This document shows, one piece after another, positions 11,918 through 19,158 of a stretch of 44,224 bases of DNA; within the stretch, counting starts at the first letter, position 1, and the number at the start of each line of letters is the position of its first letter. The position numbers and the translations under genes were made by a program. The notes beneath the pieces are model-generated. The model saw nothing but the letters and a program-made list of their open reading frames with translations, did no database searches and was not told the DNA's origin. This DNA is from Desulfuromonadaceae bacterium (GTDB lineage Bacteria; Desulfobacterota; Desulfuromonadia; Desulfuromonadales; Syntrophotaleaceae): positions 1 to 44,224 of the forward strand of contig SLLR01000002.1 in assembly GCA_007134025.1 (NCBI GenBank). Direction: 5' to 3'.

Positions 11918-13603
11918 ATGAGCGACGACGGCCGCAAGATAATTTATTCAATGATTCGCGTCAGCAAACATCACAACAAAAAACCGGTTCTGAAGGATAT
12001 CTCCCTGTCCTACTTTTATGGCGCCAAGATTGGCGTTCTCGGCCTCAACGGCTCGGGCAAAAGCTCCCTGCTGCGCATTCTGGCCGGCGTCGACCAGGAG
12101 TTCCAGGGTGAAACCATCCTGTCCCCGGGACATACGGTGGGCTTTCTCGAACAGGAGCCACAACTGGCAGCCGGAAAAACCGTGCGCCAGGTGGTAGAAG
12201 AAGGGGTTCAGCCCATAGTCGATCTGGTCAATGAGTTCAACGACATCAACACGAAATTCGCCGAGCCGATGTCCGACGATGAAATGGATGCCCTCATCGC
12301 CCGCCAGGCCGAGGTTCAGGAACAGCTCGACCAGCTGGATGCCTGGGATCTCGACAGCCGTCTCGAACAAGCCATGGATGCTCTGCGCTGTCCCCCCGGC
12401 GAGTCCACCGTGGATGTCCTCTCCGGCGGCGAAAAGCGCCGGGTAGCCCTCTGCCGGCTGCTGCTGCAGAAGCCTGACATTCTGCTGCTGGACGAACCGA
12501 CCAACCACCTCGACGCCGAAACCGTGGCCTGGCTGGAGCAGCACCTGCAGCGCTATGCCGGAACGGTCATCGCCGTCACCCATGATCGTTATTTTCTCGA
12601 CAACGTGGCGGGCTGGATTCTGGAACTCGACCGGGGTCAGGGTATTCCCTGGAAGGGCAACTACTCTTCCTGGCTGGAACAGAAACAGGAGCGCCTGCGT
12701 CAGGAAGAGAAGCAGGAAAGTGTTCGCCGCAAAACCCTGCAGCGCGAACTGGAATGGATTCGCATGACCCCCAAAGGCCGTCACGCCAAAGGCCAGGCCC
12801 GAATCAGCTCTTACGAGCAGTTGCTGCAACAGCAGGGCGGTGATCGGGAAAAGGAGCTGGAACTGTATATTCCACCAGGGCCGCGCCTGGGTGACATTGT
12901 CATCGAAGCCGACGGCGTGGCCAAGGCTTATGGCGAACGCCTGCTCATGGAAAACCTGGCCTTCCGTCTGCCTCCCGGCGGCATCGTCGGCATCATCGGG
13001 CCCAACGGTGCCGGCAAAACCACCCTGTTCCGCATGATTACCGGCCAGGAGCAGCCTGATAGCGGCACAATCCGTGTCGGCGACACGGTTAAACTGGCCT
13101 ACGTTGACCAGAGCCGTGAAGCCCTTGACCCGAACAAAAGCATCTGGGAGGAAATCAGCGACGGTCAGGAAGTCATCGAGCTGGGCCAGCGAACCTTGAA
13201 CAGCCGTGCTTTCGTGTCACGTTTTAACTTTGGCGGCGAGCAGCAGCAAAAAAAGGTCGGTGTGCTTTCCGGCGGCGAACGCAATCGGGTACACCTGGCC
13301 AAAATGCTGCGCAGCGAATCCAACGTGCTGCTCCTCGACGAACCGACCAACGACCTCGACGTCAACACCATGCGGGCCTTGGAAGAGGCCCTTGAAAATT
13401 ATGCCGGCTGTGCGGTGATCATCAGCCACGATCGCTGGTTTCTCGACCGCATCGCCACTCACATCCTGGCCTTTGAAGGCGACAGCCAGACGGTCTGGTT
13501 CGAGGGCAACTGGTCCGAATACGAAGAAGATCGCCGCAAGCGCCTGGGTGCCGCCGCCGATCAGCCCCACCGCATCAAATACCGCCAGCTTACACGGGCC
13601 TGA
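11918..13603 (+). CDS. ettA: ABC-F protein EttA (energy-dependent translational throttle)
   Basis: A 561-residue soluble protein with two ABC ATPase domains and no membrane part. Domain 1 has Walker A GLNGSGKSS, signature LSGGEKRR and Walker B LLLDEPTNHLD. Domain 2 has GPNGAGKTT, LSGGERNR and LLLDEPTNDLD. The linker between them is long and basic (ribosome-tRNA interaction segment). The sequence pattern (MTPKGRHAKGQARISSYEQLL) is that of EttA rather than Uup or YheS. EttA binds the ribosomal E site and gates the first elongation step by energy charge. AAGGAG lies 11 nt before the ATG, and a strong terminator follows. Confidence 0.94.
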   Translation: MSDDGRKIIYSMIRVSKHHNKKPVLKDISLSYFYGAKIGVLGLNGSGKSSLLRILAGVDQEFQGETILSPGHTVGFLEQEPQLAAGKTVRQVVEEGVQPIVDLVNEFNDINTKFAEPMSDDEMDALIARQAEVQEQLDQLDAWDLDSRLEQAMDALRCPPGESTVDVLSGGEKRRVALCRLLLQKPDILLLDEPTNHLDAETVAWLEQHLQRYAGTVIAVTHDRYFLDNVAGWILELDRGQGIPWKGNYSSWLEQKQERLRQEEKQESVRRKTLQRELEWIRMTPKGRHAKGQARISSYEQLLQQQGGDREKELELYIPPGPRLGDIVIEADGVAKAYGERLLMENLAFRLPPGGIVGIIGPNGAGKTTLFRMITGQEQPDSGTIRVGDTVKLAYVDQSREALDPNKSIWEEISDGQEVIELGQRTLNSRAFVSRFNFGGEQQQKKVGVLSGGERNRVHLAKMLRSESNVLLLDEPTNDLDVNTMRALEEALENYAGCAVIISHDRWFLDRIATHILAFEGDSQTVWFEGNWSEYEEDRRKRLGAAADQPHRIKYRQLTRA

Positions 13604-13621
13604 AAACTTGTTATGCCCTGA

Positions 13622-13655
13622 AGCGAGGTGACGGCAGAAGTCACCTCGCTTTTTC
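13622..13655 (+). terminator. Intrinsic terminator of ettA
   Basis: An 11-bp perfect stem AGCGAGGTGAC/GTCACCTCGCT (13622-13632, 13640-13650, 7-nt loop) is followed by TTTTCTTT. Confidence 0.93.
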
Positions 13656-13814
13656 TTTGCCTTTGCCACGGAATCCCAAGGTCTTTCCCTGCCTTTTATT
13701 TACAGTTTTTTCAGACACTTTCCCCGCCAAAAGAAAAAATTTCTACCACTGCATGCATCCTTCTATCTAAGCATATTTTTTTTAAAATTTTTTTTAAAAA
13801 TATTTTTTTTGATC

Positions 13815-13843
13815 TTGACAACACCGTTTTATTCCTGTACACA
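13815..13843 (+). promoter_or_regulatory. Promoter of the riboswitch-controlled operon
   Basis: A consensus -35 TTGACA (13815-13820) is 17 nt from TACACA (13838-13843). The -10 is weak (3 of 6), but the -35 is perfect and is preceded by an A/T-only block at about 13773-13810 that could act as an UP element. Transcription from here would put the GEMM aptamer about 27 nt into the leader. Confidence 0.6.
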
Positions 13844-13876
13844 GAGAGTCTGTTTGATGAAATTATTCATTAACGT

Positions 13877-13970
13877 GTGATTTTCGAAAAGAGCAAACCC
13901 GTAGTAATGCGGGGACGCAAAACCGTGGATCCTTTGCGCCGAAGGACTGCCAGGTTGCCGAAGAAATTAC
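13877..13970 (+). ncRNA. GEMM-I riboswitch aptamer, A20 (3',3'-cGAMP-type) variant
   Basis: The leader contains all GEMM-I hallmarks: GAGCAAACC (13891-13899), a P2 stem CCCGTA/TGCGGG capped by a GTAA tetraloop (13898-13913), the core GGGACGCAAA, a P3 arm with CCTT/AAGG, and the 3' GCCAGGTTGCCGA core. P1 forms between GTGATTTT (13877-13884) and GAAATTAC (13963-13970), 8 bp with two G-U pairs. Aligned to the Vibrio Vc2 aptamer (AGGGCAAAC), the nucleotide at position 20 is A (AGAGCAAAC). G20 contacts one base of c-di-GMP; natural A20 GEMM-Ib members in Geobacter respond to cyclic AMP-GMP. Ligand choice here is therefore inferred, while the aptamer class is seen directly. Confidence 0.92.
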
Positions 13971-14000
13971 TCCGGTCAGATTTCACGACCCGTCTTCGGC
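13957..14000 (+). promoter_or_regulatory. Potential antiterminator stem linking aptamer and terminator
   Basis: GCCGAAGA (13957-13964, the conserved 3' core of the aptamer) is exactly complementary to TCTTCGGC (13993-14000, the terminator 5' arm and loop). A further AAT/ATT pairing (13965-13967 with 13980-13982) can extend it. Formation would destroy both the ligand pocket and the terminator. The two folds are thus mutually exclusive, which predicts transcription without ligand and termination with ligand. Confidence 0.65.
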
Positions 14001-14022
14001 ATGAAGACGGGTTTTGTTTTTC
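13988..14022 (+). terminator. Riboswitch expression-platform terminator
   Basis: A 10-bp perfect stem ACCCGTCTTC/GAAGACGGGT (13988-13997, 14003-14012, 5-nt loop) is followed by TTTTGTTTTT. Its 5' arm can alternatively pair with the aptamer core (see the antiterminator entry), so it is a conditional terminator ahead of the operon. Confidence 0.9.
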
Positions 14023-14191
14023 CTTCGGACTGTTTTTGCGTCCACTCCAAAGGAGGGGCGGAACCCGAAACGCTAAGACCGGTCACGCTTGGTGATAGAA
14101 AGTTCGCTGATGCTGATGATTTTCTCGATACAGGCGGGGCGGTCTTGCCTTACCGGGGAACAGTTCGGAAATCTTTTAAGGGAGGTTTGGC

Positions 14192-14383
14192 ATGGCAGGA
14201 AAAATCAAAGAGATGATCGACCTTATTATCGGCCAGAGGGCAAAAGGCAATCCCATGCTTGAACGGGTCATTAAATCCAAGCTGATGCTTAAAGGGGTCA
14301 ATCCCAAGAAGTACGACTCGGGCTCCCCGGACGATCCTGCGGTTCTGCAGAAGCTTGAACGCATGATGCATACCCTCAAATAG
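14192..14383 (+). CDS. Small conserved-looking protein, first gene of the riboswitch operon
   Basis: A 63-residue hydrophilic protein with a basic N-terminal half (IIGQRAKGNPMLERVIKSKLMLKGVNPKKY) and a C-terminal helix after a DDPAVLQKL segment. No signal peptide, membrane segment or known motif is visible, and I do not recognise a family with confidence. AGGGAGG about 8 nt before the ATG and its place directly after the riboswitch leader, 25 bp ahead of the FIST gene, support a real gene. Its size and charge would fit a small regulator or adaptor for the sensor proteins downstream; this is a guess from context only. Confidence 0.75.
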   Translation: MAGKIKEMIDLIIGQRAKGNPMLERVIKSKLMLKGVNPKKYDSGSPDDPAVLQKLERMMHTLK

Positions 14384-15654: not shown

Positions 15655-16473
15655 ATGTCACAAACAGCACATATTCGAATCGTAACGCCTTCAGACAACG
15701 ATCTGAAAAAGACCGAAAACAGCCTGAAAGAAAACGACAACGGTCTTCAGGGCAGCCTGTCTCTCACCAACATCACCAACCTTTTGCAGTTTCTTTCCAT
15801 GAGCTCCAAAAAAGGTGTTATCGAACTGAGCCGGCAGGGGGACAACAAAAAGGGCCGGATCTGGTTTGCGGGCGAAGAATTGTTGTCCGCCGTCTCGGGC
15901 ACTCTGGCCGGGATTGAAGGTTTTGCCGATCTGCTCGGCTGGGAACAGGGCTCCTTCCAGTTTATGCCGGACGTCCCCTTCGAGGATAAAAAAAACATCG
16001 GCCTCAAAGTACAGCATGCGATTCTCGAGGCGGCCACGCTGCTTGACCACCGGGCCAATGAGCAAGGCGCCGCTTCCCATACCCCAACCGAAGAACGGAG
16101 TCACCTTATGGATCTGACAGCACGGGATTCTAGCGAAGTGTTGAACAATCTGCTGGAAGTCCCCGGTGTGGACGCGGTGGTCGTTGTCGGCAGAGACGGT
16201 TTCGTTATAGAATCTGCCGGCAGCAGCAATCGGGTCAACACCGAGGAACTCGGCGCCTCTCTGGCCCACGCCATCAACGGCATTGAAGAAATGGGCAGCG
16301 AATTGAATGTCAATGTGTTGCAGGACATGTTTATCGAGTACGGCCGGGCGGTTATCATGTGCCGGCCGGTCGGGGACGCCATTGCCGCCATCATTACCCC
16401 GGATGCGTCCAAATTGGGGTTGATCCGCCACAAAACGAAAAAACTCCTCGTCGAACTCGGCGAATCTTTCTAG
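15655..16473 (+). CDS. PATAN (DUF4388) - Roadblock/LC7 two-domain protein
   Basis: A 272-residue protein. Residues about 30-135 match the PATAN/DUF4388 pattern (LQGSLSLTNITNLLQFLSMSSK, IELSRQGDNKKGRIWFAGEEL, LLGWEQGSFQF). Residues about 152-270 form a Roadblock/LC7 domain (LLEVPGVDAVVVVGRDGFVIES, MFIEYGRAVIMC, LGLIRHKTKKLLVEL). In bacteria Roadblock proteins such as MglB act on Ras-like GTPases, and PATAN domains occur in receiver-linked regulators. No MglA-type GTPase is encoded here. The start has GAGG at 8-nt spacing. It follows FIST by 139 bp and precedes the V4R-like gene by 12 bp. Confidence 0.88.
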   Translation: MSQTAHIRIVTPSDNDLKKTENSLKENDNGLQGSLSLTNITNLLQFLSMSSKKGVIELSRQGDNKKGRIWFAGEELLSAVSGTLAGIEGFADLLGWEQGSFQFMPDVPFEDKKNIGLKVQHAILEAATLLDHRANEQGAASHTPTEERSHLMDLTARDSSEVLNNLLEVPGVDAVVVVGRDGFVIESAGSSNRVNTEELGASLAHAINGIEEMGSELNVNVLQDMFIEYGRAVIMCRPVGDAIAAIITPDASKLGLIRHKTKKLLVELGESF

Positions 16474-16485
16474 GAGACCAGTATA

Positions 16486-17001
16486 ATGGCGTTGAATCTT
16501 GAGTTTACCATGGACAAGGAAACCTACCGTCACTCGCTGAACGGACACGAGATGGTGATGCATTCCCATCACTATCTGGCCCTGATCACCAAAATGGTCG
16601 AGGATCTGACCGATCTGGGCGGTCCTGAAATTCTCAGCGACGTTACTGAAGAAACCATGATCATGATTCTGAACGACTATTTTCAGAAACACGGCCTCAA
16701 CGATAGCGAGGAACGTCTGCGTGCCGGTGAGGACTATTTTTCTACCTTCGGCCTAGGCAGGATGCACGTCTCCGGCGATGCCGACGGAGGTGAAGCCCGA
16801 CTGACCAGCAGCCACCTCGACGAGGGCTGGACCATGAAATGGGGGCCACACGACAAGCCGGTGAATCATTTGGCCTGCGGTTTTATTTCCGCGATTTTTT
16901 CGGCAGCATTCAACAAGTCGGCCAAAAGCTACGGCACCACCGAGACGGCCAGCATCATTACCGGCGAGCCGGAGAGCGCTTTCATCGTAACCGCGTTGTA
17001 A
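16486..17001 (+). CDS. V4R-like small-molecule-binding protein, copy A
   Basis: A 171-residue soluble protein. The N-terminal part is His- and acid-rich (MVMHSHHYLALITKM), and the C-terminal half ends in the pattern of 4-vinyl-reductase (V4R) domains: LACGFISAIFSAAFNKSAKSY, then a short strand ending in ESAFIVTAL. V4R domains bind hydrophobic or metal-linked ligands in regulators and in tetrapyrrole and sulfur metabolism proteins. Usual V4R cysteines are largely absent here. TAGGAG lies 9 nt before the ATG. The next gene starts 17 bp later and shares the C-terminal pattern, so the two may form a heteromer. Family assignment is by pattern only. Confidence 0.7.
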   Translation: MALNLEFTMDKETYRHSLNGHEMVMHSHHYLALITKMVEDLTDLGGPEILSDVTEETMIMILNDYFQKHGLNDSEERLRAGEDYFSTFGLGRMHVSGDADGGEARLTSSHLDEGWTMKWGPHDKPVNHLACGFISAIFSAAFNKSAKSYGTTETASIITGEPESAFIVTAL

Positions 17002-17018: not shown

Positions 17019-17600
17019 ATGACCGTCATGCGTGATACGGCCGTCAAGGCCCTGGCCAATGTCCAGGTTCAGAGTGATGAGAACGGACTGATTCCTGAGT
17101 ACGAAGTCCTGGTGAACCTGCTGCCGATAAAACTTCTGAACGCTTTTTCAGAGCGGATTATGGCTGCGGCGCCTCCGGAGCGTAAAGCCGAGGTGGAAGC
17201 GGGCCTGGTGCGGGCCGCCTATGAGTGCGGCTATCATACGGGATGCGGCATCATTACCTCGGACATCTTCAACGACGTGGTCATGCCCATGGTCACGGAA
17301 GACGAGAAGGACATTCTGCGCGGCGCCTATGCGGCCTTCACCGCCTGGGGCTGGGCCAAGTCCGGTATCGTGCAGCTTAAACCGGGCGAAAAAATGATTA
17401 TCCGCGCCCTGGATTACTACGAGGCGGACAGCGGCGGTGAGGGCCTGCGGGGTTTCATGCTGCGGGGACTGAGTCAGGCGTTTTTCGATCTGGCCTACGC
17501 CGAAACCTACCCCGACGGCATGGACACTTTTGTCTGCCATCAGACCAAAGGCATCGAGGTTGGGGACCCTCATGGTGAATTTGTGGTGGTAAAAAAGTAG
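17019..17600 (+). CDS. V4R-like small-molecule-binding protein, copy B
   Basis: A 193-residue soluble protein. Its C-terminal part (FMLRGLSQAFFDLAYAETY, then GIEVGDPHGEFVVVKK) carries the V4R-like helix-strand ending seen in the preceding gene product. The middle contains a possible ligand region with YECGYHTGCGIITSD (two Cys, one His). I see no membrane segment. The frame is open upstream into the previous gene, but GGAGAGG at 17004-17010 and the 17-bp gap fix the ATG at 17019. Paired with copy A it may sense a small molecule for the operon; this is inference. Confidence 0.7.
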   Translation: MTVMRDTAVKALANVQVQSDENGLIPEYEVLVNLLPIKLLNAFSERIMAAAPPERKAEVEAGLVRAAYECGYHTGCGIITSDIFNDVVMPMVTEDEKDILRGAYAAFTAWGWAKSGIVQLKPGEKMIIRALDYYEADSGGEGLRGFMLRGLSQAFFDLAYAETYPDGMDTFVCHQTKGIEVGDPHGEFVVVKK

Positions 17601-17701
17601 CGCCGCAAGAGGTTGTTGGGTAAAAGGCACGGGCTGGATTCTGTCCGGCCAGGCGGCAACCGGGACCGATGCTGAACAGCTCCGGAGCGGATGGGGAGGA
17701 T

Positions 17702-18550
17702 ATGCACTTAATCGACGGACAGCCCATGGACAAGGCTCTGGTCGCGGCGGCGAAAACCGGTTGGAGCGGTGTGTTGCGCGGCAGGATCGGACAGCAGGAG
17801 GTCGGGATGGTGGTGTTCAGCCACGGCCGGGTCGCCTGGTCGGTGAGCAGGGAGCAAACCCGGGACCTTCCCTTCTATCTGCAGAACATGGGGCAGGTTT
17901 CCCTTCCTCGCCTGGAGGAAATCCTCGAGCTTCAGAAAGCGCCGGACAAATCGAAGAAACTCGGCCCGCTACTGGAAGAAGCAGGGCTGATCGACCAGGC
18001 CTTGTTCGCCGAGTGCCTGCTGGCACACATTCGTAGCGCCCTGTCGCCGCTGGTCAACAATCCCCTGACCGTAGGCTGTACCGAAGAGGGAGAGGTTGCG
18101 GCCGATGCCCGGTTGACCTTTTCACTGCAGGAGACCCTGGATTCGGCTGAGACCGACGTCGCAGATGTGCCTGCTCAGGAAGATTCCGGCGACCCGCTGC
18201 AGGATCTTGCTCTTTTGCCCGGCTTCTGCTACGCCTTTGTCGCCAATGCCGCAGGCAAACTGCTCCTTTACCACGAAGCCGATGCTGGTACAGAACCCCA
18301 AAAAGATCTTTCGGCCTGGATTGCCGAATGGCTTCGCAGTTGCGTACAAACCGCTCACCATGTCGGCATCAAGCGACCCAGGAGCGCCTTTATCGAAGGG
18401 CTCGGCCAGTCGTTGCTGGTGCAGGTAACCGACCCCGATTTCGGATTTTTTCTTGGGGTGGCCTTTAACGAAGCGGGAAAGCTTGGCGTCTACCGCTCCA
18501 GAATCGCCAGCATCCTTCCCGCAATCCGGGCCCTCTCCGAGACGAAGTAG
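17702..18550 (+). CDS. PATAN-like / Roadblock-like regulatory protein
   Basis: A protein of about 282 residues. The N-terminal 110 residues resemble PATAN/DUF4388 (WSGVLRGRIGQQEVGMVVFSHGRVAWSV, then LGPLLEEAGLIDQALF). The C-terminal 110 residues resemble a Roadblock/LC7 fold (LPGFCYAFVANAAGKLLLYHE, LGQSLLVQVTDPDFGFFLGVAFNEAGKLGVYRSRI). It is thus a diverged second copy of the architecture encoded at 15655-16473. GGGGAGG ends 2 nt before the ATG at 17702, a tight spacing; an in-frame ATG at 17669 is the alternative. It follows copy B by about 100 bp, and the ParA fragment begins 17 bp after its stop. Confidence 0.75.
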   Translation: MHLIDGQPMDKALVAAAKTGWSGVLRGRIGQQEVGMVVFSHGRVAWSVSREQTRDLPFYLQNMGQVSLPRLEEILELQKAPDKSKKLGPLLEEAGLIDQALFAECLLAHIRSALSPLVNNPLTVGCTEEGEVAADARLTFSLQETLDSAETDVADVPAQEDSGDPLQDLALLPGFCYAFVANAAGKLLLYHEADAGTEPQKDLSAWIAEWLRSCVQTAHHVGIKRPRSAFIEGLGQSLLVQVTDPDFGFFLGVAFNEAGKLGVYRSRIASILPAIRALSETK

Positions 18551-18567: not shown

Positions 18568-18717
18568 ATGTCTCACGTTATTTCCATCGTCAGTTCCAAA
18601 GGCGGCGCTGGCAAGACCACGATCGCCCTGAACCTGGCCGTCGCTCTGGCCGAGGGACAGAAGTCGAATATGGGGCACTCCCAAGAGTTGCCCCCTTTTT
18701 TTATCAGCATTTTTTAA
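18568..18717 (+). pseudogene. Truncated ParA/MinD-family ATPase (N-terminal P-loop fragment)
   Basis: ATG at 18568 opens a 49-codon frame. The first 31 residues (MSHVISIVSSKGGAGKTTIALNLAVALAEGQ) are the unmistakable N-terminus of a ParA/MinD-type ATPase with the deviant Walker A KGGAGKTT. After that the expected LLVDxDPQ switch region is missing: the frame runs into an intrinsic terminator hairpin and stops. No remaining ParA sequence is found in any frame up to kamA. This looks like a deletion that removed the rest of the gene. A full-length ATPase was presumably the last member of the riboswitch operon in the ancestor. Confidence 0.85.
18672..18702 (+). terminator. Intrinsic terminator inside the ParA fragment
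   Basis: GGGGCACTC/GAGTTGCCCC (18672-18680, 18685-18694, CCAA loop, one bulged T) is followed by C and T7. It ends the riboswitch operon and lies directly at the point where ParA homology is lost. Confidence 0.85.
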
Positions 18718-19158
18718 CCTGGCTCACCGCGTTTTCCGCCCCCTCAGCGACAGCTCTGCTTGTACTGACTCTGCTTGTACTGACTCTGCTTGTACTGACT
18801 CTGCTTGTACTGATTTGACCCGGCCTCCTTCTCCCTGTAACATGGCACTTGTGGACAACACCCCGCCAGGGTGTTTCGATCCGATCCCGCAGAGAGATCC
18901 AGGATCCGGCCCCGCGCCTTGATCTTGCTGGTCTCAGCCTCCCTCAGAGCAACACCCGTTTCTGTCTGTCCGCAAAAACGGGTCGCGGGTTGCTCTGCCC
19001 CCGGCAATCAAGCAGCCCCTTCAAAACACGGCTCAGAGCAGTAATCCCTTTGTGCTCACTGGTGCCACCGCGTGTCCGTATCCTGAGTACCGGCGCTTCG
19101 GTACCCTTTGATCACTGTGGTTATCTCTTCAGCACACACCTAAGACAAGGAGTCATCC
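18718..19158. other. Gene-free region with tandem repeat and hairpins
   Basis: About 440 bp between the ParA fragment and kamA. It holds the 15-nt tandem repeat (18755-18814) and three hairpins: AACACCC/GGGTGTT (18857-18875); a long imperfect stem CAGAGCAAC+CCCGTTT with AAACGGG+GTTGCTCTG (18945-18997, 16 bp plus an internal loop); and GTACCG/CGGTAC (19087-19104). AAGGAG before the kamA start lies at the right end. An 87-codon minus frame (18744-19007) spans the repeat but starts with TTG and has no ribosome binding site. A decayed mobile element or a structured RNA is possible; neither is shown. Confidence 0.6.
18755..18814. repeat. Four tandem copies of a 15-nt unit
   Basis: The unit TCTGCTTGTACTGAC is repeated four times without gaps; the last copy ends in T instead of C. 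The 15-nt period keeps all frames open and gives QYKQS repeats in one minus frame, but no gene with a ribosome binding site covers it. The copy number is likely to vary between strains. Confidence 0.95.

Follow-up and report, generated by a model that had tools for sequence, protein, structure and literature searches.

The closest described relatives of the element treated here, an A20-type GEMM-I riboswitch aptamer in a 44,224-nucleotide (nt) stretch of a Desulfuromonadaceae genome (the window, by which that whole stretch is meant throughout), are the GEMM-Ib switches of Geobacter that sense 3',3'-cyclic AMP-GMP (cGAMP), such as the pgcA leader GSUR3008, Gmet_0970 and pilM. The cGAMP switches covered in PMC6456294 (for G. 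sulfurreducens) and in PMC9262584 (for pilM) are ON switches, and an ON direction is predicted in PMC9481103. Adenine at position 20 is also found in the pocket of the G20A mutant of a c-di-GMP-I (cyclic di-GMP-I) riboswitch (4YB1), listed in PMC7288161 as also binding cGAMP, and in the A-variant aptamer of Desulfobacca, for which PMC9481103 describes a gain of cGAMP affinity with perhaps a slight loss of that for c-di-GMP. As presented in PMC9262584, position 20 is a selectivity factor and not a hard filter, the lower P2 helix having effects as well. An OFF output is known from Cd1 of Clostridioides difficile, a c-di-GMP-I switch whose antiterminator pairs the ligand-pairing C87 (PMC9262584).

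The element in the window shares with the Geobacter switches the GEMM-I fold, A20, an intrinsic terminator and, elsewhere in the genome, a candidate GacA-type Hypr GGDEF protein. With Cd1 it shares an antiterminator that consumes the ligand-pairing C and a terminator compatible with the bound aptamer. We consider it, with a probability of roughly 55%, to be an A20 GEMM-I riboswitch that most likely responds to 3',3'-cGAMP (possibly to c-di-GMP too) and acts as a transcriptional OFF switch of a sensor operon. The aptamer, its A20, the terminator, the mutually exclusive pairing and their conservation can be read directly from the sequence; which ligand is bound, the OFF direction, the promoter and what the operon does are inferred. 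The expression platform, with its predicted OFF direction for a natural A20 aptamer, is the new part here.

The aptamer and its binding pocket

The source contig (C145) belongs to a genome of 149 contigs, 2.25 Mb and 99% completeness. Screening of the window with cmscan at gathering thresholds yields one RNA element, at the site where an earlier note on this DNA had placed a GEMM-I riboswitch, and corroborates the class: RF01051 (c-di-GMP-I) matches 13882-13962 of the plus strand with 65.7 bits, against a gathering score of 35. The element is a GEMM-I riboswitch aptamer of the A20 type, with the following parts.

13877 to 13970, plus strand: aptamer including P1 (the span given in the earlier note); 8-bp P1 by inspection, core matched by Rfam models
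13882 to 13963, plus strand: GEMM-I (c-di-GMP-I) aptamer core; RF01051 65.7 bits, RF03167 59.7 bits
13892, plus strand: A20, the specificity position equivalent to G20 of Vc2; from the alignment of the family's 73 GEMM-I hits, letter rechecked
13893 to 13918, plus strand: G21:C46 pair (13893 with 13918), closing the lower P2 in the predicted fold; the pocket reads AGCAC

Pocket positions 20, 21, 46, 47 and 92 are A, G, C, A and C in the alignment of the 73 GEMM-I hits from the 14 genomes of the family. The adenine (A13892) at the equivalent of Vc2 G20 and the P2 helix with its GTAA loop, both claimed beforehand, are thus found again, P2 being formed in the predicted fold by 13898-13903 and 13908-13913 around a GNRA-type loop at 13904-13907. 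The A47 (13919), C92 and P3 (13921-13956 in the fold) of the class are present as well. We take the numbering of the pocket positions to be that of Vc2, and it agrees with the C21:G46 swap observed in other hits and with the numbering of the crystallised cGAMP aptamer. The latter is numbered J1/2 A9-A14, P2 C15-G40 and A41 (PMC6274999).

The segment 13860-14016 folds more stably than all of 200 shuffles (z -3.67). The proposed 8-bp P1 (13877-13884 with 13963-13970) fared less clearly, since it can be drawn by inspection, with G-U pairs among its base pairs, and the leader's lowest-energy fold has another outer helix. This long helix, CGUG...CACG, was set aside, as its sequence is, by eye, not conserved in the leaders of genus g4.

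Expression platform

An intrinsic terminator begins 24 nt past the aptamer core, and part of it can pair with aptamer nucleotides.

13987 to 14019, plus strand: intrinsic terminator, hairpin 13987-14013 plus U-rich tail; hairpin about -18.5 kcal/mol (drawn from 13984), compensated stem changes in orthologs
13956 to 13964, plus strand: antiterminator 5' strand UGCCGAAGA, including C92 (13958) and C93 (13959); 9-bp Watson-Crick match, minimum free energy (MFE) state at the decision length, letters rechecked
13993 to 14001, plus strand: antiterminator 3' strand UCUUCGGCA, located in the 5' arm and loop of the terminator; letters rechecked

The two antiterminator strands are complementary over all 9 bp, a match reached by 0 of 300 shuffles, and their pairing and the terminator hairpin are mutually exclusive. 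At low ligand, 13956-13964, including C92, would pair with 13993-14001 once that stretch is transcribed, which would block the upper part of the terminator 5' arm and let RNA polymerase enter the operon. With ligand bound, C92 and the start of P1 would be locked in the binding pocket, the hairpin 13987-14013 would form and transcription would end. Since the antiterminator consumes the strand carrying the ligand-pairing C92, ligand should cause termination. The predicted folds have the OFF layout of Cd1: the terminator stands apart from the aptamer, and aptamer nucleotides form part of the antiterminator. In Cd1 ligand does cause termination, whereas for the window this is a prediction; Cd1 differs further in having a G at the position-20 equivalent, in binding c-di-GMP and in controlling flagellar genes.

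The operon with its GEMM-I leader is present in six of the 14 family genomes (the source genome G000, and G001, G009, G010, G011 and G013). A20 is kept in all six leaders, which come from two genera, while the 73 GEMM-I hits of the family comprise 49 G20, 23 A20 and one T20. The longest Watson-Crick run between aptamer end and platform is 9 bp in G000 (dinucleotide-shuffle p 0.003), 8 bp in G001 (0.040), G013 (0.017) and G011 (0.020), 7 bp in G009 (0.060) and 6 bp in G010 (0.17). The base before CC is paired in four of the six, twice as G-C and twice as A-U, and the terminator stems vary by compensated changes, for example CCCGUCUUC/GAAGACGGG versus CCAUCUUC/GAAGAUGG.

Growing transcripts were folded with nearest-neighbour energies, which contain neither ligand nor tertiary contacts. 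Between synthesis of the loop and that of the 3' arm, the MFE structure is the antiterminator in 6/6 orthologs, 6.1-8.4 kcal/mol better than the binding-competent fold. Completion of the arm reverses the order: the binding-competent fold with terminator then leads the antiterminator by 1.3-6.8 kcal/mol, and is the MFE at that length in two of the six (G013 and G010).

Some results weigh against the OFF reading. The antiterminator run of G010 ends before C92, and in G009 a G/A mismatch occupies the position preceding CC. In 4/6 orthologs the complete-arm binding-competent fold lies, ligand-free, 1.0-4.3 kcal/mol above the MFE. Family-wide, the base before CCGAA and the loop base show no significant covariation (Fisher p 0.14). 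Once complete, the terminator state is lowest in energy in all six orthologs; therefore an OFF switch requires kinetic persistence of the antiterminator.

A candidate promoter lies upstream of the aptamer.

13815 to 13843, plus strand: candidate sigma-70 promoter TTGACA-17-TACACA; motif pattern across orthologous leaders

The pattern, TTGAC(A/T) plus a TAYA-type -10 at 17-18 bp spacing, recurs in 6/6 leaders, where the -35 begins 53-85 nt upstream of the aptamer; a strict promoter scanner gave none within 13600-14200.

Ligand and candidate synthase

That the element is a cGAMP sensor, as proposed beforehand, is suggested by A20, the mark of cGAMP riboswitches (GEMM-Ib), in 6/6 leaders and by a Hypr GGDEF candidate in the genome. 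By the Hypr rule Ser replaces the canonical Asp (PMC6456294, PMC8835794), and the GGDEF protein at G000:C55:17829-19196 shows this exchange (NDSRGHLAGSQAL...GGDEF), its N terminus being receiver-like by eye. Among the genome's 20 GGDEF matches it is the one with Ser and an intact GGDEF motif, a second GS match (C59) having a GGDDY motif in a divergent domain. A full-length Ser relative occurs in 14/14 family genomes. By sequence, the solved structure closest to the protein is 6d9m (186.5 bits; the next scores 106.6), a response-receiver GGDEF protein fused to lysozyme, which is probably the Geobacter metallireducens Hypr structure, judging from the construct named in PMC6456294. The genome therefore appears to encode a candidate cGAMP synthase, a GacA-like Hypr GGDEF protein, which would be the likely source of the ligand.

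With a limit of E <= 1e-60, the enzyme was found in 118 of 136 genomes from the order. A P2-consistent A20/G21 aptamer is present in 45 of 91 genomes with the enzyme versus 1 of 18 without it (109 genomes, G014-G122; Fisher p 4e-4), in a test that used 81 of 131 listed rows and in which G073, one of the 45, is marginal in P2 (5 of 6 pairs). In the order, then, A20 aptamers mostly co-occur with the enzyme, with two draft-genome exceptions.

Other evidence pulls away from cGAMP as the ligand. The enzyme was not detected in the two exceptions, both drafts, and 6 of 8 GEMM-I hits in G027 (71% complete) and 1 of 4 in G109 (85%) are A20; inclusion of G109, missed by the search pattern, weakens the genome test to p 0.003. 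One family, f7 (G040-G053), on which the co-occurrence mainly depends, supplies 14 of the 18 enzyme-less genomes in the test. The enzyme was not found in 14/14 of its genomes, at a sensitivity of 12 candidates scored per genome, and GEMM-I hits are absent from 8 of the 14; the other six hold 10 hits, all G20, and 0/10 A20 there against 23/73 in the family of the window gives p 0.055. The lower P2 pair of the window is G13893-C13918, not the C:G of the crystallised Geobacter aptamer 4YAZ (PMC6274999), although a C:G seen in one structure is not established as obligatory. A20 may thus not by itself secure selectivity over c-di-GMP in the window RNA, which has G21:C46, and the cGAMP proposal is supported in part.

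Position 20 can also flip among related leaders: those preceding cheW-like genes carry A20 in G004:C1:668443 (L089), G005:C36:8284 (L093) and G007:C10:63850 (L046) and G20 in G008:C54:4354 (L088), with platforms of one kind. Until the terminator is complete, the MFE is the antiterminator in 4/4 of them, and the MFE of the G004 leader retains it even at the longest folded transcript. These leaders look like an apparent natural single-base ligand swap.

The same OFF switch might, then, have c-di-GMP as its physiological ligand, or bind both dinucleotides without useful discrimination, since A20 by itself would not keep c-di-GMP out of a G21:C46 pocket. The G21:C46 pair, in place of the C:G of the crystallised cGAMP aptamer, and the A20/G20 flip of the cheW-like leaders speak for this, as do the role of position 20 as a selectivity factor only (PMC9262584) and the perhaps small c-di-GMP loss of the Desulfobacca variant (PMC9481103). 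The conservation of A20 in 6/6 orthologs beside G20 paralogs and its absence from the ten GEMM-I aptamers of the enzyme-less family f7 argue against it, and we hold it to be the lesser, rather unlikely choice, with cGAMP as the ligand likely, not secure. The 4YB1 mutant, presumably Vc2 with G21:C46, has A20 in a c-di-GMP-type pocket, but is engineered and not a natural RNA.

ON and OFF layouts across the family

The comparison with the Geobacter A20 switches made in the earlier note stands as to class and A20; as to output, on which the note is silent, the platform described above predicts the opposite logic. In pilM the terminator uses the aptamer strand, which gives an ON switch (PMC9262584), whereas the window has a separate terminator, an antiterminator of the OFF type and a different target. 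A Geobacter-like ON switch, in which ligand would prevent termination via another pairing, has in its favour that the cGAMP riboswitches of PMC6456294 and pilM are ON. It is improbable here, where the terminator starts 24 nt after the core and where the layouts of the family point elsewhere. Terminator searching of the 73 hits gave 14 with the 5' arm inside the aptamer, 55 with a separate terminator and 4 with none. The 14 overlapping ones are all without G21 (ten G20/C21, three A20/C21 and one degenerate T20/T21), and 0 of 59 G21 hits have this ON layout. Among other-family A20 loci, 53 of 65 rows are separate, 2 overlapping, 3 without terminator and 7 without a found aptamer end, in a set that contains duplicates and some chance matches and in which the aptamer end of L180 (overlapping) is doubtful. 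The separate layout is common among G21 aptamers and is therefore not special to this locus.

A CUUCGG-type antiterminator occurs in 13 of 20 A20/G21 hits versus 8 of 35 G20/G21 hits with a separate terminator, by a motif test that is loose and misses the G010 ortholog. A shuffle p <=0.05 is reached by 7/20 A20/G21, 6/39 G20/G21 (4 of the 39 having no terminator) and 0/13 C21 hits. A reading of CUUCGG as a UUCG tetraloop was rejected, as in the predicted hairpins CUUC is in the terminator 5' arm and GG in the loop.

Two further GEMM-I elements were observed in the genome itself. The one at G000:C116:4398-4488 (G20, C21:G46) forms its terminator with the aptamer strand, as in the ON layout; the one at G000:C66:14231-14310 on the minus strand (G20, G21:C46) is followed by a gene whose NGDEF domain is degenerate, and the terminator search found no intrinsic terminator behind it.

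A terminator acting constitutively, with the aptamer a relic or a ligand titrator, would fit the complete terminator state being lowest in energy in 6/6 orthologs. It would leave unexplained why, across two genera, the aptamer core is nearly invariant, the stems are compensated and the antiterminator is retained, and it is very improbable.

Membership in the c-di-GMP-I-GGC class (RF03167), with the ligand of that class, can be dismissed: this is the top cmscan label and its covariance model overlaps the aptamer (13883-13963, E 1e-11, one overlapping same-clan match dropped), but at 59.7 bits against a gathering score of 59 it is barely over threshold, and the window has A20, A47 and C92 (AAC) where the class, if GGC denotes positions 20, 47 and 92 as we take it to do from the name and the model consensus, has G20, G47 and C92. 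The RF03167 consensus is GGGACGCGAA where the window reads GGGACGCAAA. The C66 aptamer, a second G21 aptamer of the genome with G20 and A47, outscores the window with the same model (65.7 bits), so that the model fails to separate subtypes here. Automatic Rfam labels can mislead for this riboswitch group.

Operon and targets of related leaders

The genes downstream of the leader in the window are these.

14192 to 14383, plus strand: 63-amino-acid (aa) open reading frame (ORF), first gene of the operon, without Pfam family; in 5/5 other orthologous loci at 71-89% identity
14409 to 15515, plus strand: FIST_N/FIST_C protein, NosP-like; Pfam E 4.3e-43 and 2.2e-22
15655 to 16473, plus strand: DUF4388 plus Roadblock/LC7 protein (Pfam)
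16486 to 17001, plus strand: 171-aa protein, no family found; model pLDDT (predicted local distance difference test) 53
17019 to 17600, plus strand: 193-aa protein of no recognised family, with 89-97% identity in four relatives; model pLDDT 45
17669 to 18550, plus strand: 293-aa protein, no family found; NCBIfam sub-threshold match only, E 0.1
18568 to 18717, plus strand: truncated ParA/MinD-like ATPase gene; about 33 matching residues versus 271 aa in four relatives

The target had been described as an operon of sensor domains outside the usual cytochrome targets. It is indeed non-cytochrome, but the signalling domains recognised are those of the FIST and DUF4388-Roadblock genes only, the first gene is the 63-aa ORF, three further ORFs lack a family and the ParA-like gene is truncated. 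Pfam gave no usable match for the 63-, 171-, 193- or 293-aa ORFs (DUF4197 was touched at E 0.17 only, by a relative of the 193-aa protein), and the 171- and 193-aa structure models are too poor for structure searching.

NosP proteins are FIST heme proteins that sense nitric oxide and are often tied to c-di-GMP systems (PMC12570481). The FIST protein of the window has the same length, and its match to the NCBIfam NosP model (E 2.4e-82, 277 bits) runs from end to end. Its score is below the equivalog cut-off of 450, and none of the operon ORFs was recognised as a kinase or response regulator; heme binding and a NosP-like sensing function are putative. The PDB search with this protein gave weak cholinesterase matches only. 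FIST relatives of 60-63% identity occur in five genomes of genus g3 and one of g2, by coordinates with no GEMM-I hit within 5 kb (the nearest is at 5.5 kb on the other strand, in G002); in the search of the 14 family genomes, G007 and G012 had no FIST match.

A 271-aa ParA-like protein is in the operon of 4/4 relatives whose contig reaches that far. The source genome has no other ParA match above 35% identity, and the truncation is therefore a deletion, a rearrangement or an assembly join. Just past the truncated gene, 18754-18813 consists of four head-to-tail copies of the 15-mer CTCTGCTTGTACTGA.

Targets of the related leaders were assigned by reading translated ORFs, without family search. 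Of the A20/G21 leaders, the 13 that have the antiterminator motif stand before five FIST operons, three cheW-like, two GGDEF, two PAS-type sensor genes and one helicase-like gene; the other seven precede a sixth FIST operon, three membrane sensor-like genes and one each of PAS-GGDEF, TolC-like and fimbria-like type. Behind the three A20/C21 leaders lie AMP-ligase-like genes in two cases and a LysM/transpeptidase-like gene in the third. The division into sensing and surface targets is a tendency.

Biological meaning

Title-level literature searches brought up no OFF cGAMP riboswitch that we recognised, nor this target, and absence from print is not claimed. The OFF logic predicted for a natural A20 aptamer is in our view the part worth testing. 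As a tentative, somewhat doubtful extension, Syntrophotalea/Pelobacter-type bacteria may hold a second cGAMP branch (A20 with G21:C46), OFF and mainly on sensing genes (the NosP-like operon, cheW-like, GGDEF and PAS genes), beside the known ON branch (A20 with C21:G46) on surface genes. One messenger would then repress sensing and induce surface functions via oppositely wired RNAs, and changes at position 20 would swap the messenger while leaving the wiring untouched. Two questions become testable, namely whether an A20 aptamer with G21:C46 discriminates in favour of cGAMP in nature, and how ligand and output of a riboswitch evolve independently. If the OFF reading is true, the conservation of A20 together with such a platform would mean that cGAMP also represses, and does not only activate, and a NosP-like sensor operon would be under second-messenger control.
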